Source: Chloroflexota bacterium (GTDB lineage: Bacteria > Chloroflexota > Anaerolineae > 4572-78 > J111). Taken from it: a stretch of DNA of 64,000 nucleotides. Below the pieces are notes generated by a model. The model did no database searches and was not told where the DNA came from. It worked only from the letters and a program-made list of their open reading frames with translations. The stretch spans positions 207,869 to 271,868 of the forward strand of contig BOKF01000009.1 in NCBI GenBank assembly GCA_016860845.1, written 5' to 3'. A program made the position numbers and the translations under genes. Below are positions 43,140-48,679 of this stretch, piece after piece (the stretch's first letter is position 1; every line of letters starts with the position of its first letter).

Positions 43140-43226
43140 GGGGAGGTGCCAGAGTGGTCGAATGGGGCGGTCTCGAAAACCGCTGTAGGCTCCGGTCTAC
43201 CGTGGGTTCGAATCCCACCCTCCCCG
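43140..43226 (+). tRNA. tRNA-Ser (anticodon CGA)
   Basis: Acceptor stem GGGGAGG (43140-43146) pairs with CCTCCCC (43219-43225), discriminator G at 43226, 87 nt with a long variable arm typical of class II tRNAs. The anticodon arm GCGGT-CTCGAAA-ACCGC gives anticodon CGA, which reads UCG. The T-loop GGGTTCGAATCCC is perfect. CCA is not encoded. Confidence 0.97.
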
Positions 43227-43251
43227 CTGAAACGTTGAACGTTTAACGTTT

Positions 43252-43337
43252 GGAGAGGTCGCATAGCTGGTCTAGTGCGCGCGATTGGAAATCGCGTAGG
43301 TGTAACAGCCTCGAGGGTTCGAATCCCTCCCTCTCCG
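43252..43337 (+). tRNA. tRNA-Ser (anticodon GGA)
   Basis: Acceptor GGAGAGG (43252-43258) pairs with CCTCTCC (43330-43336), discriminator G, 86 nt, long variable arm. The anticodon arm CGCGA-TTGGAAA-TCGCG gives GGA, reading UCC/UCU. The T-arm GGGTTCGAATCCC is intact. CCA is not encoded. The 25-base spacer from the first tRNA-Ser is itself made of AACGTTT heptamer words. Confidence 0.97.
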
Positions 43338-43351
43338 CCTTTATCAGTATA

Positions 43352-43418
43352 GGTGTAGTCAGATGTCAGTAGTCAGACAAAATTTTTTCTGACTACTGAC
43401 TACTGGCTACTGACATCT
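43352..43418. repeat. Heptamer-iterated hairpin between tRNA-Ser and SRP RNA
   Basis: The left arm GATGTCAGTAGTCAG (43362-43376) and right arm CTGACTACTGAC...CTGACATC (43389-43417) are CAGTAGT/CTGACTA words around a loop containing TTTTTT. On the plus strand the loop and arms could act as a processing or pause site. Confidence 0.82.
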
Positions 43419-43420
43419 GT

Positions 43421-43576
43421 TCAGAGCGAGGGCAACCGGGTAGTGTTGAGGGTTGGGTCCTGCGCGGCAGGAGCCTGCGAACCAGGTCAGGTCCGGAAGG
43501 AAGCAGCCTTAAGTGGTCCCTCCTGGGCGCCGTAGGGCAGCCTGGCCGGAGCTACTCGGTTGCCGTCGCCCTGAGC
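43421..43576 (+). ncRNA. ffs: Signal recognition particle RNA (bacterial small SRP RNA)
   Basis: The domain IV hallmark GGTCAGGTCCGGAAGGAAGCAGCC spans 43486-43508 (Ffh-binding GGAA tetraloop region and AGCAG internal loop). The ends pair over a long helix: 43422-43444 (GAGCGAGGGCAACCGGGTAG-like) with 43553-43575. The approximately 155-nt length is longer than E. coli 4.5S RNA. It scaffolds Ffh for co-translational membrane targeting. It follows the two tRNA-Ser genes on the same strand. Confidence 0.95.
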
Positions 43577-43586
43577 AACAGCAATT

Positions 43587-44443: not shown

Positions 44444-45988
44444 ATGCTGAGCCATCCAACAGCCCAACCGATAAGTCAGCAGCCTCAGCACAGGCGATTC
44501 AACTCTGCTTGGTGGCGCAGCCTGGGAGCGGTTGGTCTGCTCCTGGCGCTGTGGGCTGGATATCAGCTCACCGGCCAGCCGGTTACCCTGGTGATCAACG
44601 GCCAGCCCTACCCTATGCGCACTCACCGCCTGGAAGTGGCGGCGATTGTCCAAGCTGCCGGATTGACCTTGCAGCCTGAAGATCGGGTCCAGCCGCCGCT
44701 CAACCACCAACTCGCGCCGGGCGAAACCCTCGCCATCCAACTGGCCCGGCCGGTCTCGATTGAAGCGGATGGCCGGACCTGGCGTCTGCTGACTCATCAG
44801 CCCACCGTCGGCGAGGTTCTGGCCGAGGCTGGCCTGATAACCAATCCTCGGGACAAGATTTTGATTGAGGGGCAAGTTGTCCCGCCCCAGTCGCCTTTAC
44901 CGGCAGGCCAAAGTGCGCCCTCTTTAGCTAAAGGTATCACTCATCTCCTGGCCGCCGCCCGAACGCCGCAAGGGGCCATCGCCTCAGCCCGCCCTGCGCC
45001 GGTCCAACTGATTATCCGGCGGGCCGTGCCGATCAGCCTGCACGACGGCCAGGTTAGCAGCACGTTTTACACAACCCAGCCCAACGTCGGCGAGGCGCTG
45101 TTGGAACAAGGTTTAACCCTGTTTTTAGGGGATAAGGTAACGCCCGGTCTCGGTACACGCCTGTCGCCGGGGATGCGAATTTACGTGCAGCGCTCGCTGC
45201 CGGTCGCTCTGACGGTGGACGGCCGGCTCATCAAAACACGCACGCGCGGCAAGACGGTCGGCGAAGTGTTAGCCCAGGAAGGTGTGGCGCTGATGGGCGA
45301 GGATTACAGCCGGCCAGCAGCCAAACAGCCGATTGCCGGCGATACCCTGATTGAAGTGGTTCGGGTGCGTGAAGCCGTTGAAATCGAAGAGGAATTTATC
45401 CCCTTTGAAAGCGAGTGGATTCCCGATGCCGAGATGGAGGTTGACCAGCAAGAAAAACGGCAGGTGGGCGTGACCGGGGTCATCAAGAGCCGCACCCGGA
45501 TTCGGTATGAAAACGGCCAGGAGGTGTGGCGGAGACTGGAAGATGAGTGGTTAGACCAGGAGCCAAGCACCCAGATTATTGCTTATGGCACCAGCGTGGT
45601 CGTGCGCACTCTGGACACGCCGGCCGGCCCGATTGAATACTGGCGCAAGATCCCGATGCTGGTCACTCCCTATAACGCCGCTACTTCCGGCAAATCTGCC
45701 GACCATCCCCAATACGGCATCACTCGCACGGGCCTGCGCGTGGGCTTTGGCATGGCCGCGGTTGATCCCAAGGTAATTCCGCTGATGACCAAAATCTACG
45801 TACCTGATTACGGCATCGCCCTGGCTGCCGATACCGGGGGTTTGATTGTGGGCAAACATATTGACCTGGCTTTTGACGACCACCAGCCCCTGCCCGATCT
45901 CTACGGCTGGCGCGATGTCTACATGCTCACCCCCGTTCCGCCCGCAGACAAAATTCGCTATGTTTTGCCGCAATGGCCGCCGCAGTAA
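44444..45988 (+). CDS. Cell-wall protein with DUF348 (ubiquitin-like) repeats, G5-like region and C-terminal 3D domain
   Basis: This 514-residue predicted secreted muralytic enzyme starts with a membrane signal near 25-45 (SLGAVGLLLALWAGYQL). Three DUF348-type repeats follow (PVTLVINGQPYPMRTHRLEVAAIVQAAGL; ISLHDGQVSSTFYTTQPNVGEALLEQGL; VALTVDGRLIKTRTRGKTVGEVLAQEGV). A G5-like segment follows (VREAVEIEEEFIPFESEWIPDAEMEVDQQEKRQVGVTGV). The C-terminal 3D domain has DPKVIPLMTKIYVPDYGIALAADTGGLIVGKHIDLAF, with the three conserved Asp. Relatives (RpfB-like/YabE-like) hydrolyse peptidoglycan. It is likely cotranscribed with the GNAT gene (8-base gap). Confidence 0.9.
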   Translation: MLSHPTAQPISQQPQHRRFNSAWWRSLGAVGLLLALWAGYQLTGQPVTLVINGQPYPMRTHRLEVAAIVQAAGLTLQPEDRVQPPLNHQLAPGETLAIQLARPVSIEADGRTWRLLTHQPTVGEVLAEAGLITNPRDKILIEGQVVPPQSPLPAGQSAPSLAKGITHLLAAARTPQGAIASARPAPVQLIIRRAVPISLHDGQVSSTFYTTQPNVGEALLEQGLTLFLGDKVTPGLGTRLSPGMRIYVQRSLPVALTVDGRLIKTRTRGKTVGEVLAQEGVALMGEDYSRPAAKQPIAGDTLIEVVRVREAVEIEEEFIPFESEWIPDAEMEVDQQEKRQVGVTGVIKSRTRIRYENGQEVWRRLEDEWLDQEPSTQIIAYGTSVVVRTLDTPAGPIEYWRKIPMLVTPYNAATSGKSADHPQYGITRTGLRVGFGMAAVDPKVIPLMTKIYVPDYGIALAADTGGLIVGKHIDLAFDDHQPLPDLYGWRDVYMLTPVPPADKIRYVLPQWPPQ

Positions 45989-46035
45989 AGTAACAGGATA
46001 GCAGTATCTGCTACTTTGTTACCTTGCTACTTGTT
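45985..46035. repeat. Iterated-word hairpin upstream of rsmA
   Basis: GTAACAGGATAGCAG faces CTGCTACTTTGTTAC around TAT (45988-46021), and CTTGCTACTTG continues to the ribosome binding site of rsmA. Confidence 0.72.
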
Positions 46036-46048
46036 TAAAGGACCTCCT

Positions 46049-46978
46049 GTGGACTCTCTCTCAACCCTTCTCAAGAAATACGGCCTTCGTCCCCGCAAAG
46101 AACTGGGACAAAATTTTTTAACCGATCCGGTTCACCTGGCTAAAATTGTTGACGTTGCCGGGTTGACTCCTTCCGACACCGTTTTAGAAATCGGCCCCGG
46201 CCCCGGTACGCTGACGCGCCTGTTGGCCGAGCAAGCCGGGCGGGTTATCGCCGTCGAACTCGACCCACACATGGTCACTCTGCTCAAAAATGAATACGGC
46301 CATCTCAAGAATTTAATCGTGGTCGAAGCCGATATTTTGCAGACCGATTTGAGCCGTTTAATCCGCTCGGCTGAGAACTCTGAGCAGGTATCCTTAGTCA
46401 ATGGCCGACCCCCGATCCCCAACCCCCGACCCTCCACCTACAAAGTTGTCGCTAACCTCCCCTACTACATTACCTCTGCCGTGATCCGTCATCTGTTAGA
46501 GGCGACTCCCCAACCAGAGCGGGTCGTGGTCACCGTCCAGAAGGAGGTGGCTCAGCGGATGGTGGCCAAGCCGGGGCAAATGAGCCTGTTGGCCGTCAGC
46601 GTGCAATTTTACGGACAGCCCAGCCTGGCCCATCACATCCCGGCTGGCGCATTTTATCCCGTCCCTAAAGTAGACTCCGCCGTCGTGCGCATTGACACCT
46701 TTGCCCAGCCGGTCGTTGCCGTGGCTGATACCGATTATTTTTTCCGGGTAGTCAAAGCCGGTTTTGGCCAAAAACGGAAACAATTGAAAAACTCGCTGGC
46801 GGCGGGCCTGGCCAAACCTATACCGGCAGTTATCGAGGCCTTGACCAGGGCTAACATTGACCCAACCCGGCGGGCCGAAACCTTAAGTTTAGAGGAATGG
46901 GGCCGCCTGGCCGAAGTTTTGAAAAGTCCGCCGTCAGGAGACGACGGGCAAAATCAGGGAATTTTGCATTCCACTTGA
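46049..46978 (+). CDS. rsmA: 16S rRNA dimethyladenosine transferase RsmA (KsgA), with an in-frame insertion
   Basis: It dimethylates two adjacent adenosines near the 3' end of 16S rRNA during small-subunit assembly. The 309 residues begin with LLKKYGLRPRKELGQNFLTDP. SAM motif I is VLEIGPGPGTLTRLLAEQAGRVIAVELD, motif IV is VVANLPYYITSAVI, and the C-terminal domain has VPKVDSAVVRI. The GTG at 46049 has AAAGGA 6 bases upstream. Between SAM motif III (DILQTDLSRLI) and the NLPYY motif there are about 25 extra residues including GRPPIPNPRPST, encoded by a heptamer tract. A small-RNA promoter -35 box overlaps the stop codon. Confidence 0.95.
   Translation: MDSLSTLLKKYGLRPRKELGQNFLTDPVHLAKIVDVAGLTPSDTVLEIGPGPGTLTRLLAEQAGRVIAVELDPHMVTLLKNEYGHLKNLIVVEADILQTDLSRLIRSAENSEQVSLVNGRPPIPNPRPSTYKVVANLPYYITSAVIRHLLEATPQPERVVVTVQKEVAQRMVAKPGQMSLLAVSVQFYGQPSLAHHIPAGAFYPVPKVDSAVVRIDTFAQPVVAVADTDYFFRVVKAGFGQKRKQLKNSLAAGLAKPIPAVIEALTRANIDPTRRAETLSLEEWGRLAEVLKSPPSGDDGQNQGILHST
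46408..46435. repeat. Heptamer-iterated insertion within rsmA
   Basis: Four 7-nt words (ACCCCCG, ATCCCCA, ACCCCCG, ACCCTCC) run in frame, encoding PPIPNPRPST in a surface position between conserved motifs. Confidence 0.8.
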
Positions 46979-47003
46979 CAAAAATAAGAAATGATTGTAT
47001 ATT
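46975..47003 (+). promoter_or_regulatory. Consensus sigma70 promoter of small RNA 1
   Basis: TTGACA (46975-46980) and TATATT (46998-47003) with exactly 17-bp spacing. The -35 box overlaps the rsmA stop codon. Confidence 0.85.
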
Positions 47004-47008
47004 ATTTC

Positions 47009-47096
47009 ACAAGGCATTTCTCTCCTTTCTTGTTGTTTGCCTCCCTCCTTAATAGGATGACCCCGGCGCTGCCCCCACCCGGGGTCATCTGTTTTT
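47009..47096 (+). ncRNA. Candidate small RNA 1 with anti-SD-like C-rich motif
   Basis: The predicted transcript runs from about 47009 to the terminator (47056-47096). Unpaired 5' sequence contains the block CTTGTTGTTTGCCTCCC followed by TCCTT (47029-47050). It is shared almost exactly with small RNA 2. The CCTCCC-TCCTT core resembles the 16S rRNA 3' end and could pair with Shine-Dalgarno sequences. No open reading frame of note is present. Confidence 0.65.
47056..47096 (+). terminator. Terminator of small RNA 1
   Basis: GATGACCCCGG (47056-47066) pairs with CCGGGGTCATC (47079-47089), followed by TG and T5. Confidence 0.88.
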
Positions 47097-47102
47097 AAAG
47101 CC

Positions 47103-47131
47103 AAACAGGCTGCACTAAATGCAGCCTGTTT
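47103..47131. terminator. Symmetric hairpin between the two small RNAs
   Basis: AAACAGGCTGCA (47103-47114) pairs perfectly with TGCAGCCTGTTT (47120-47131). With A and T runs on both sides it could act on either strand. Confidence 0.75.
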
Positions 47132-47158
47132 AAAATTTGCCCAAATGATCCAAGTTGC

Positions 47159-47187
47159 TTGACAAAGGGGGGTGAGCCGGGTATAAC
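47159..47187 (+). promoter_or_regulatory. Consensus sigma70 promoter of small RNA 2
   Basis: TTGACA (47159-47164) and TATAAC (47182-47187) with 17-bp spacing. Confidence 0.85.
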
Positions 47188-47193
47188 TTTTCC

Positions 47194-47280
47194 ACAACAG
47201 GCGGCAATGGTCCTCTTGTTGTTTTCCTCCCCTCCTCAAGTCGGTTGCTCCGGGTACCCTCCGGGGCAACCACTTTTTTA
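47194..47280 (+). ncRNA. Candidate small RNA 2 with anti-SD-like C-rich motif
   Basis: The predicted transcript starts near 47194 and ends at the T6 run near 47279. It repeats the block CTTGTTGTTTTCCTCCC then CTCCT (47215-47237) in the same position relative to promoter and terminator as small RNA 1. About 20 of 22 positions of the block are identical, whereas the terminator stems differ entirely. Confidence 0.65.
47243..47279 (+). terminator. Terminator of small RNA 2
   Basis: GGTTGC-T-CCGG (47243-47253) pairs with CCGG-G-GCAACC (47261-47271), one G-U, followed by AC and six T. Confidence 0.88.
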
Positions 47281-47329
47281 AACCGTTAGCAGGTTGAAGG
47301 TTGAAAGGCTAGACGCCACATTCAACGTG

Positions 47330-48619
47330 CTAACGTTCCACGATCAAACGGTGATATTTCTTCTTTCCGGCCCGGAGCAAAATCCCGGCCGGGGTCAAAT
47401 TGTCCGGAGTCAAAACTGCTTCCGCTTCATCCACGCGTTGATCGTTCACGTAGATTCCACCCTGCTGGACCATACGCCGCGCTTCTCCACGCGATTGGGT
47501 CAGGCCAGTTTCGGCAAAAATTTCCAAAACACCTACTCCTTGCTCTAGGCGGGTGCGAGGTATGAGAGTCGTAGGCAGATCAGCTAGTGCATCGCTATCC
47601 TTAACCTCAACACTATCTGTTAAGGCAATATTATCTTCTACAACAATAAGTCTTCTTCCAAAGGCAGCACTGGCGGTAGTCTGAGCAGCACGCGCTGCTT
47701 CTTCACCATGAGTAATTTTGGTCGCTTCAAAGGCCAAAACCCGCTTGGCTTCGCGCAGCTCGGCCCCTTCGAGGGCAGCCAGCCGGTTGATCTCCGTGAT
47801 GGGCAAAAAGGTGAAGATTTTCAGCAGCTTGGCCACATCGCGGTCATCACAGTTGATCCAATACTGGTAATAATCGTAGGGGCTGAGTCTTTCGGGGTCC
47901 AGCCAGACCGCCCCGGCGGCGGTTTTGCCCATCTTGGCCCCGTCGGCCGTCGTCAGCAAGTGGTAGGTCATGGCCTGGGCAGTTGCCCCTTCAACCCGGC
48001 GAATTAAATCTACGCCGGCCAGCAGATTGCTCCACTGGTCGTCGCCGCCCATCTGCATGGTACAGCCGTAGCGGCGGTAGAGTTCCAGAAAATCATAGGC
48101 TTGCAGGAGCTGGTAGTTAAACTCGATGAAACTCAAGCCCCGCTCCAGGCGCAGCTTGTAGGCTTCGGCGGCCAGCATGCGGTTGACGCTAAAATGGCGG
48201 CCAATCTCGCGCAGGAAGGAAATGTATTTGAGGTCCAGCAGCCACCTGGCGTTATTTTCAGGGATGGCCCGGCCCTCGTCAAAGTGCAGATAATGGTTAA
48301 GTTGGGCGTGGAGTTTATGAGCATTCGCCTCGATACTTTCTTCGGAAAGCATCTGGCGCATCTCGGTTTTGCCGCTGGGGTCGCCAACCATGGTCGTGCC
48401 GCCGCCGACCAGGCCAATCGGCCGGTGCCTGGCTCGCTGCAAGTGCATCATAGCCATTACAGGGACCAGGTGGCCGGCGTGCATGCTATCGGCCGTACCG
48501 TCGAAGCCCACGTAAAATGTTATCTGCCCTTCACCTAACATTTTGCGGACGGCATCCTCATCTGTCACCTGGGCAATGAAGCCGCGCTCCTGGAGAATGT
48601 CAAAGGCGTTGTCGCTCAT
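47330..48619 (-). CDS. tyrS: Tyrosyl-tRNA synthetase
   Basis: It charges tRNA-Tyr. The 429 residues contain the class I features: YVGFDGTADSMHAGHLVPVMAMMHL (HIGH-like HAGH), the tyrosine-binding YQLLQAYDFLELYRRYGCTMQMGGDDQWSN, and the KMSKS-like loop DGAKMGKTAAGA. A C-terminal S4 domain (EIFAETGLTQSRGEARRMVQQGGIYVNDQRV) ends the protein. The ATG at 48619 is used; a GTG at 48628 is possible. Its 3' end (RLIVER-stop) lies within an iterated GGTTGAA/AACGTT tract (47285-47335). It is convergent with the small RNAs. Confidence 0.96.
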   Translation of the reverse strand: MSDNAFDILQERGFIAQVTDEDAVRKMLGEGQITFYVGFDGTADSMHAGHLVPVMAMMHLQRARHRPIGLVGGGTTMVGDPSGKTEMRQMLSEESIEANAHKLHAQLNHYLHFDEGRAIPENNARWLLDLKYISFLREIGRHFSVNRMLAAEAYKLRLERGLSFIEFNYQLLQAYDFLELYRRYGCTMQMGGDDQWSNLLAGVDLIRRVEGATAQAMTYHLLTTADGAKMGKTAAGAVWLDPERLSPYDYYQYWINCDDRDVAKLLKIFTFLPITEINRLAALEGAELREAKRVLAFEATKITHGEEAARAAQTTASAAFGRRLIVVEDNIALTDSVEVKDSDALADLPTTLIPRTRLEQGVGVLEIFAETGLTQSRGEARRMVQQGGIYVNDQRVDEAEAVLTPDNLTPAGILLRAGKKKYHRLIVER

Positions 48620-48679
48620 AATTGTCACAAACTCACTTCTTTTGCGTTGGATTTGGCTATTATACTAAGCTCACTATTT

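Follow-up and report, generated by a model that had tools for sequence, protein, structure and literature searches.

Two complete promoter-to-terminator units lie in tandem on the plus strand between rsmA and the convergent gene tyrS in the window, by which we mean the whole 64,000-nt stretch of Chloroflexota DNA that was analyzed. In each, a sigma-70 promoter precedes a leader (46 nt in one unit, 50 nt in the other) that ends in a strong terminator, and each is predicted to yield a small RNA whose start was placed from the -10 box. The features of this interval are as follows.

46016..46978, plus strand: rsmA, the upstream neighbor (Pfam RrnaAD)
46975..47003, plus strand: unit 1 promoter, TTGACA-N17-TATATT, with a -35 box that overlaps the rsmA stop codon
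47009..47096, plus strand: predicted small RNA of unit 1, about 88 nt
47022..47030, plus strand: CTCCTTTCT, first anti-Shine-Dalgarno (anti-SD) element of unit 1
47040..47052, plus strand: C-rich tail CCTCCCTCCTTAA, second anti-SD element of unit 1, from the sequence and from folds
47056..47096, plus strand: unit 1 terminator, with 11-bp arms (47056-47066 and 47079-47089) and a T-run
47159..47187, plus strand: unit 2 promoter, TTGACA-N17-TATAAC, from the sequence and from the combined rule described below
47193..47279, plus strand: predicted small RNA of unit 2, about 87 nt
47194..47222, plus strand: predicted 5' hairpin of unit 2, in which ACAACAGG (47194-47201) pairs with CTTGTTGT (47215-47222), and which contains AACAGGCGG
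47222..47237, plus strand: pyrimidine tail of unit 2, TTTTCCTCCCCTCCTC, from folds and sequence comparison
47243..47279, plus strand: unit 2 terminator, with 11-bp arms (47243-47253 and 47261-47271) and a T-run
47330..48628, minus strand: tyrS, the convergent neighbor (Pfam tRNA-synt_1b)

That two promoter-to-terminator units stand here in tandem had been proposed in a sequence-only reading of this DNA, and it is borne out by a combined rule that accepts a promoter with at most two mismatches in all and a terminator of at least eight pairs (G-T allowed) followed by a T-run. Applied to both strands of the window, this rule returned exactly these two units, and in 60 dinucleotide-shuffled windows it returned one match in total. 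An earlier version of the rule, with G-T pairs disallowed, detected unit 1 alone, and a simple scanner detected the unit 1 promoter and both terminators and missed the unit 2 promoter. The C-rich block that the same reading saw in both leaders was recovered as an 18-nt stretch (47028-47045 and 47214-47231) containing a single mismatch; among 2,000 shuffles of the unit 2 leader none reached this length, and the longest shared block was 15 nt. The motif CTTGTTGTTTNCCTCCC on its own is weaker evidence than the combined rule: with up to three mismatches, a shuffled window should contain 0.66 copies on average, and 18 of 100 shuffles contained at least two; both of the real matches are exact. Because the unit 1 -35 box overlaps the rsmA stop codon, rsmA messages probably also extend into unit 1. 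Neither unit matched an Rfam family at the gathering score, and the best match at E values up to 1 was an unrelated archaeal family with 19.6 bits, against the 88 required.

When a species-genome collection was scanned with CTTGTTGTTTNCCTCCC, 83 stretches were found, which is about or below the roughly 120 that, by our estimate, a string with 16 fixed positions would match by chance in both strands of 257 Gb. A mechanical filter for a promoter and a T-run left L058, L065, and L083, the last of which was dropped on reading as unrelated and without a terminator stem; the remaining loci were dropped by the filter alone, and ten, counting L083, were read by eye. The unit pair was thereby located in two Anaerolineales MAGs, H5_CFX7 (L065, genome G001) and H5_CFX5 (L058, G002), whose TyrS proteins are 97% and 86% identical to that of the window. 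In the comparison with H5_CFX5, the unit 1 RNA agrees at 83 of 91 positions, the unit 2 RNA at 65 of 93, and each promoter at 21 of 29, and the unit 1 leader is identical throughout (44/44), while the inter-unit spacer and the 100-base flanks on the upstream and downstream sides agree only as well as shuffled sequence does. Genome G011 repeats the pattern: its two RNAs agree at 68/89 and 57/91 positions, and all three of these segments again fall to shuffle level. H5_CFX7 is so similar overall that it cannot discriminate (RNAs 98.9%, upstream flank 84%, spacer 77%). On these comparisons, both small-RNA genes are very probably real and under selection. The C-rich block is thus kept in relatives while the flanks diverge. 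The further claim, that conservation is confined to this block, describes the two units of the window as compared with each other; it does not describe the unit 1 orthologues of close relatives, which keep the whole leader.

One or both units occur in 12 of the 25 genomes examined from the order, all of them MAGs, so absences carry little weight. Outside the order, neither unit was found in three scans of 396 genomes of the class each and one of 295. The pattern TTGCCTCCC(N)TCCTTA matched 4 of the 295 genomes, all four at unit 1, and model R1 matched 7 of 396, six at unit 1; the seventh, in G057 (E of 0.003), is complementary to an acpP leader, as judged by eye. Scoring with R1 was limited to 15 candidates per genome, and weak members may be missed. 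CTCCTT-TTGTTG-CCTCC matched 22 of 396 genomes, six of them at unit 1, and the other 16 were counted as chance on the reversed-pattern control alone, which gave 22 matches. A TTGACA-TATA-TTGTTG pattern was set aside as too loose (171/396 genomes). For unit 2, a promoter followed by ACAGGCGG matched 8 of the order's 25 genomes and gave zero control matches there, and it matched 12 of 396 across the class, 7 of these being unit 2 beside tyrS. The matches in G053, G073, G095, and G152 look unrelated, that in G152 entering an apparent tRNA gene, and G005:C355, which is located elsewhere and has no T-run, was dropped from the unit 2 set; H5_CFX5 was added to the set from its tyrS flank. Model R2, built from unit 2, matched 22 of the 25 genomes of the order at E values up to 1, mostly as noise. 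G005:C315 was accepted after reading, and the matches in G024 (E of 0.0034), G019, G015, G020, G009:C205, and G005:C91 were read, found to be without promoter or terminator, and rejected.

Seven of the order's 25 genomes carry unit 1, which occupies two kinds of locus. Six of the seven genomes were matched by sequence, and the seventh, G005, was reached through the unit 2 model (E of 1.3e-4); its unit 1 has a promoter, a tail, and a terminator. Unit 1 lies on the tyrS side in G001, G002, and G011. It lies directly downstream of tsaD in G006 and G008 and downstream of tsaD with a phosphofructokinase gene in between in G005, and in G007 it is at a contig end. An Lrp/AsnC-family gene follows 3' of unit 1 on the same strand, at no more than about 200 nt in G005, G006, and G007 and at about 3.1 kb in G008. 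Gene identities at the tsaD-side loci come from Pfam for G005 and for TsaD of G006 and from motifs for the others. The Lrp/AsnC-family genes that follow unit 1 in G005-G008 are placed as follows.

L283, 2239-2724
L284, from 3770
L285, from 292, minus strand
L286, from 6997

The Lrp frame of G006 is broken after 58 codons in this assembly.

The unit 1 family, counted with the window, has eight members. CTCCTTTC occurs in seven of them and is absent from G005, and the tail TTTGCCTCCC(C)TCCTTA occurs in seven, G011 carrying TTGCCTCCTTTCCTAA instead. One- and three-base indels are found among relatives within the conserved leader. G005 has lost the upstream loop and retains TTTGCCTCCCCTCCTTAAG, which singles out the C-rich tail ahead of the terminator as the leading candidate for unit 1's functional part.

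Of the order's 25 genomes, 15 yielded a tyrS gene, and a promoter-terminator unit faces it at 8 of these 15 loci (G001, G002, G009-G013, and G016). The most constant part of unit 2 is its 5' end, AACAGGCGG, present in 8 of 9 sequences including the window; H5_CFX5 has AACAAGAGA. In seven relatives, among them L139-L144, and in the window, AACAGGCGG stands at a fixed short distance past the -10 box. A 15-base tract ahead of the unit 2 terminator contains 12 to 15 pyrimidines in eight of the nine sequences; in G010 it contains 9. CCTCC itself, which had been put forward as the shared anti-SD motif, is indeed anti-SD-like, and it occurs in five of the nine unit 2 leaders and is absent from four. 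The wider unit 2 family thus tells against CCUCC as a universal seed, and within it the principal contact may be the 5' AACAGGCGG. R2, which was built without unit 1 sequences, matched unit 1 of G001, G002, G006, G007, and G011 at E values of 2.7e-4 to 0.006 and that of G008 at 0.06, which suggests that units 1 and 2 are paralogues. The same search gave the unrelated G024 site at 0.0034, which shows that an E value near 0.003 is unsafe, and the shared tail alone could yield the unit 1 matches; these therefore serve merely as supporting evidence of kinship.

In predicted folds of unit 1, CUCCUU of the first anti-SD element is unpaired with a probability of 0.9. The first CCUCC is unpaired at 0.43 in the window lineage and at 1.0 in G006-G008, and the 3' CCUCC at 0.98 to 1.0 in the window (0.99), G001, G002, and G006-G008; the single CCUCC of G011 is at 0.66. 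Both CCUCC copies in the unit 2 leader of the window are predicted to be fully unpaired (1.0). A single-stranded C-rich seed, as first proposed, is thus consistent with the unit 1 tail, which is mostly unpaired in the folds. The proposal does not extend to CTTGTTGTTT, most of which lies in a stem both in unit 2 and in the unit 1 copies of G006-G008, nor to CTTGTTGT as a free seed in unit 2, where it is predicted to fold back on the 5' end (ACAACAGG).

The unit 2 5' hairpin of the window has a z score of -2.1. The unit 1 leader hairpin of G006-G008, ACAAACAATAG-loop-TTGTTGTTTG, beats shuffled sequences (z of -8.1, -7.7, and -3.0), and the unit 1 stem of the window lineage is weak (z of about -1.7). 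No 5' fold above chance was seen in G011 (unit 1) or in G009, G010, G012, G013, and G016. Stem changes, counted on hand-read terminator arms, comprise one double-sided change in 11 pairs for unit 1 (three sequences) and double-sided changes at 3 of 11 pairs for unit 2 (six sequences), with one pair broken in G012. Alignment-based covariance was abandoned, as MAFFT misaligned the terminators and RNAalifold returned nothing for unit 2 and, for unit 1, five pairs that were spurious, and apparent 5'-stem covariation in G005 was rejected, as its minimum-energy fold uses a different stem.

The 16S rRNA 3' end of the order is GGATCACCTCCTTTCTAGGGA (six copies, from 4 of 11 genomes searched). Nine of its bases are repeated in the 5' part of unit 1 as CTCCTTTCT, an anti-SD element that the sequence-only reading had missed, and the unit 1 tail contains CCTCCTTA. 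In a stretch this rich in pyrimidines, a nine-base match could be coincidence. Predicted duplexes with SD strings are comparable to those of the 16S tail, some stronger and some weaker: the unit 1 loop exceeds the 16S tail on CAAGAAAGGAGAAU (-18.6 versus -14.1) and falls short of it on AGAAAGGAGGU (-13.5 versus -17.6).

Sites complementary to the loop with at most two mismatches number 79 in six genomes, six being the small-RNA genes themselves; the reversed pattern gave 42. We read 51 of the other 73, and 29 of these 51 lie 3 to 13 nt before the ATG of an ORF of over 50 amino acids, a placement shared by 5.4% of random positions and by 7 of 162 sites that lack an SD. Such enrichment at ribosome-binding sites is expected of any anti-SD string, so the mechanism is feasible, with no target singled out. 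Among the best complementary leaders, with genes assigned by eye, are those of glnA and ilvD in G008 (one mismatch each) and gcvH in G007 (two). Among the 51 sites in six genomes, only one leader recurred, in L212 and L215; as these are close relatives, we claim no target. In the window, 54 ORFs were scanned crudely, with starts chosen by SD strength, and nothing stood out from the 16S tail's own pairing.

On balance, we favor the reading that the units belong to a new family of trans-acting anti-SD small RNAs, from an uncultured Chloroflexota order, that would mask ribosome-binding sites in the manner of LhrC and NfeR1, and we hold it reasonably probable that pairing with SD sites is how they act. 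The locus would then produce two related RNAs, each transcribed independently and acting in trans, with a foldable 5' part, a C/U-rich tail containing CCUCC, and an intrinsic terminator. The CCUCC tail would pair with the SD sites of target mRNAs, and in unit 1 the CUCCUUUCU element would provide an additional pairing site; such pairing would keep the 30S subunit off and so repress translation. Redundant anti-SD sites within one molecule would be a feature shared with LhrC and NfeR1. A more specific version, possible and rather doubtful, is that two imitations of the 16S 3' end in one molecule (CUCCUUUCU in the 5' part and CCUCCUUA in the tail) compete with the 30S subunit for SD sites, perhaps tuned to nitrogen and amino-acid genes; the tuning is suggested because unit 1 at its second kind of locus precedes an Lrp/AsnC-family gene and the best complementary leaders in G007 and G008 are, as judged by eye, those of gcvH, glnA, and ilvD.

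Mimicry of the 16S tail might instead act as a global brake, engaging strong SD sites at large and lowering initiation broadly under some condition. The two 16S-like stretches of unit 1, CTCCTTTCT and CCTCCTTA, would suit such a brake, as would the finding that loop-complementary sites are mostly ordinary ribosome-binding sites of unrelated genes (29/51), but the unit 1 leader is conserved well past its anti-SD bases (44/44), which suggests more specific contacts, and G005 lacks the mimic loop; we regard a global brake as unlikely. We attach similarly little probability to the idea that the C/U tracts or AACAGGCGG hold or titrate an RNA-binding protein, with mRNA pairing being secondary. In unit 2 the pyrimidine character (12 to 15 of 15 in 8/9) is better kept than CCTCC (5/9), and the 5' AACAGGCGG in 8 of 9 sequences would also agree with protein binding, yet the near letter-perfect unit 1 tail in 7 of 8 members exceeds what a loose pyrimidine tract would need.

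Could the elements act in cis only, as terminators or spacers of rsmA and the convergent tyrS beside chance promoter-like strings? Unit 1 does start right at the stop codon of rsmA and carries a terminator at which rsmA messages would end. This is nevertheless very improbable, given promoters kept at 21/29 and 21/29 against flanks at shuffle level, a leader identical at 44/44, unit 1 copies that adjoin other genes as well, and a single rule match in 60 shuffled windows. That short peptides encoded in the leaders account for the conservation is scarcely credible: short open frames exist, for example at 47159-47281, but the 17 predicted RNAs share no start, frame, or peptide, the conserved unit 1 leader tolerates one- and three-base indels, and five short ORFs across the units gave no Pfam match.

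The favored reading, that of trans-acting anti-SD RNAs, invites comparison with known C-rich RNAs. LhrC of Listeria monocytogenes exists in five copies and has lapB as a tested target, and its plan is a 5' stem-loop, a single-stranded CUCCC stretch, and a terminator, with predicted SD masking (PMC4132741). Both units of the window likewise combine a stem-loop, a single-stranded C/U stretch, and a terminator, and they share with LhrC redundant C/U-rich sites and the presence of more than one copy. In contrast to LhrC, there are two diverged copies here, with longer CCUCC tails, and the plan is weaker in relatives, as unit 1 of G011 and several unit 2 relatives are without an above-chance 5' fold. 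The lack of an Rfam match at the units bears on LhrC only if Rfam models LhrC. The rhizobial alpha-r14 RNA NfeR1 has three hairpins that each carry CCUCCUCCC (PMC10746234). It resembles our units in a constant, unpaired anti-SD motif, in stems that differ in sequence, and in redundant motifs. Unlike its three hairpins, each unit here has a single C-rich tail, CCUCCCUCCU or CCUCCCCUCCU; this CCUCCC(C)UCCU tail lies outside a hairpin and is joined in unit 1 by the loop CUCCUUUCU. The two also differ in phylum, and no Rfam match links them.

CCUCCUCCC is also the motif of the CcsR RNAs. In Rhodobacter, RNase E releases CcsR1-4 from a single precursor shared with the DUF1127 gene ccaF1 (PMC10253847). 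The likeness is that several C-rich, anti-SD-like RNAs stand in tandem; unlike CcsR and CIN1, each unit here has its own promoter and terminator, and Pfam found no DUF1127 domain in the neighbors or in the five short ORFs across the units. For RsaE, RoxS, IsrR, and other Firmicutes RNAs with C-rich motifs, UCCC has been proposed to contact SD regions (PMC4132741); the likeness to RsaE, RoxS, and IsrR is the C-rich motif, and sequence relation was compared through Rfam only. With respect to the anti-SD class, unit 1 keeps its tail in 7 of 8 members, with the 3' CCUCC at 0.98 to 1.0 unpaired in six sequences. By the tests made here, the family appears to belong to neither LhrC nor NfeR1.

Our search of the open-licence PMC literature found no trans-acting small RNA described in Chloroflexota; the Chloroflexi-1 motif is listed for Chloroflexus aggregans (PMC2864571). 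Posttranscriptional control has been little explored in this phylum. Should the proposed mode of action hold, Chloroflexota would have anti-SD regulation that uses redundant C/U sites, and the family would offer compact, testable genes for studying it.

Three further features of the window were noted. Between the units, at 47103-47131, lies a perfect 12-bp inverted repeat, AAACAGGCTGCA / TGCAGCCTGTTT, with a 5-nt loop; it is terminator-like, and H5_CFX7 keeps its right half only. Two genes upstream of the small RNAs, positions 44444-45988 encode a 514-amino-acid protein with four DUF348 stretches, a G5 domain, and a 3D domain. On the plus strand at 43140-43581, Rfam identifies a pair of tRNA genes and, after them, a large bacterial SRP RNA.
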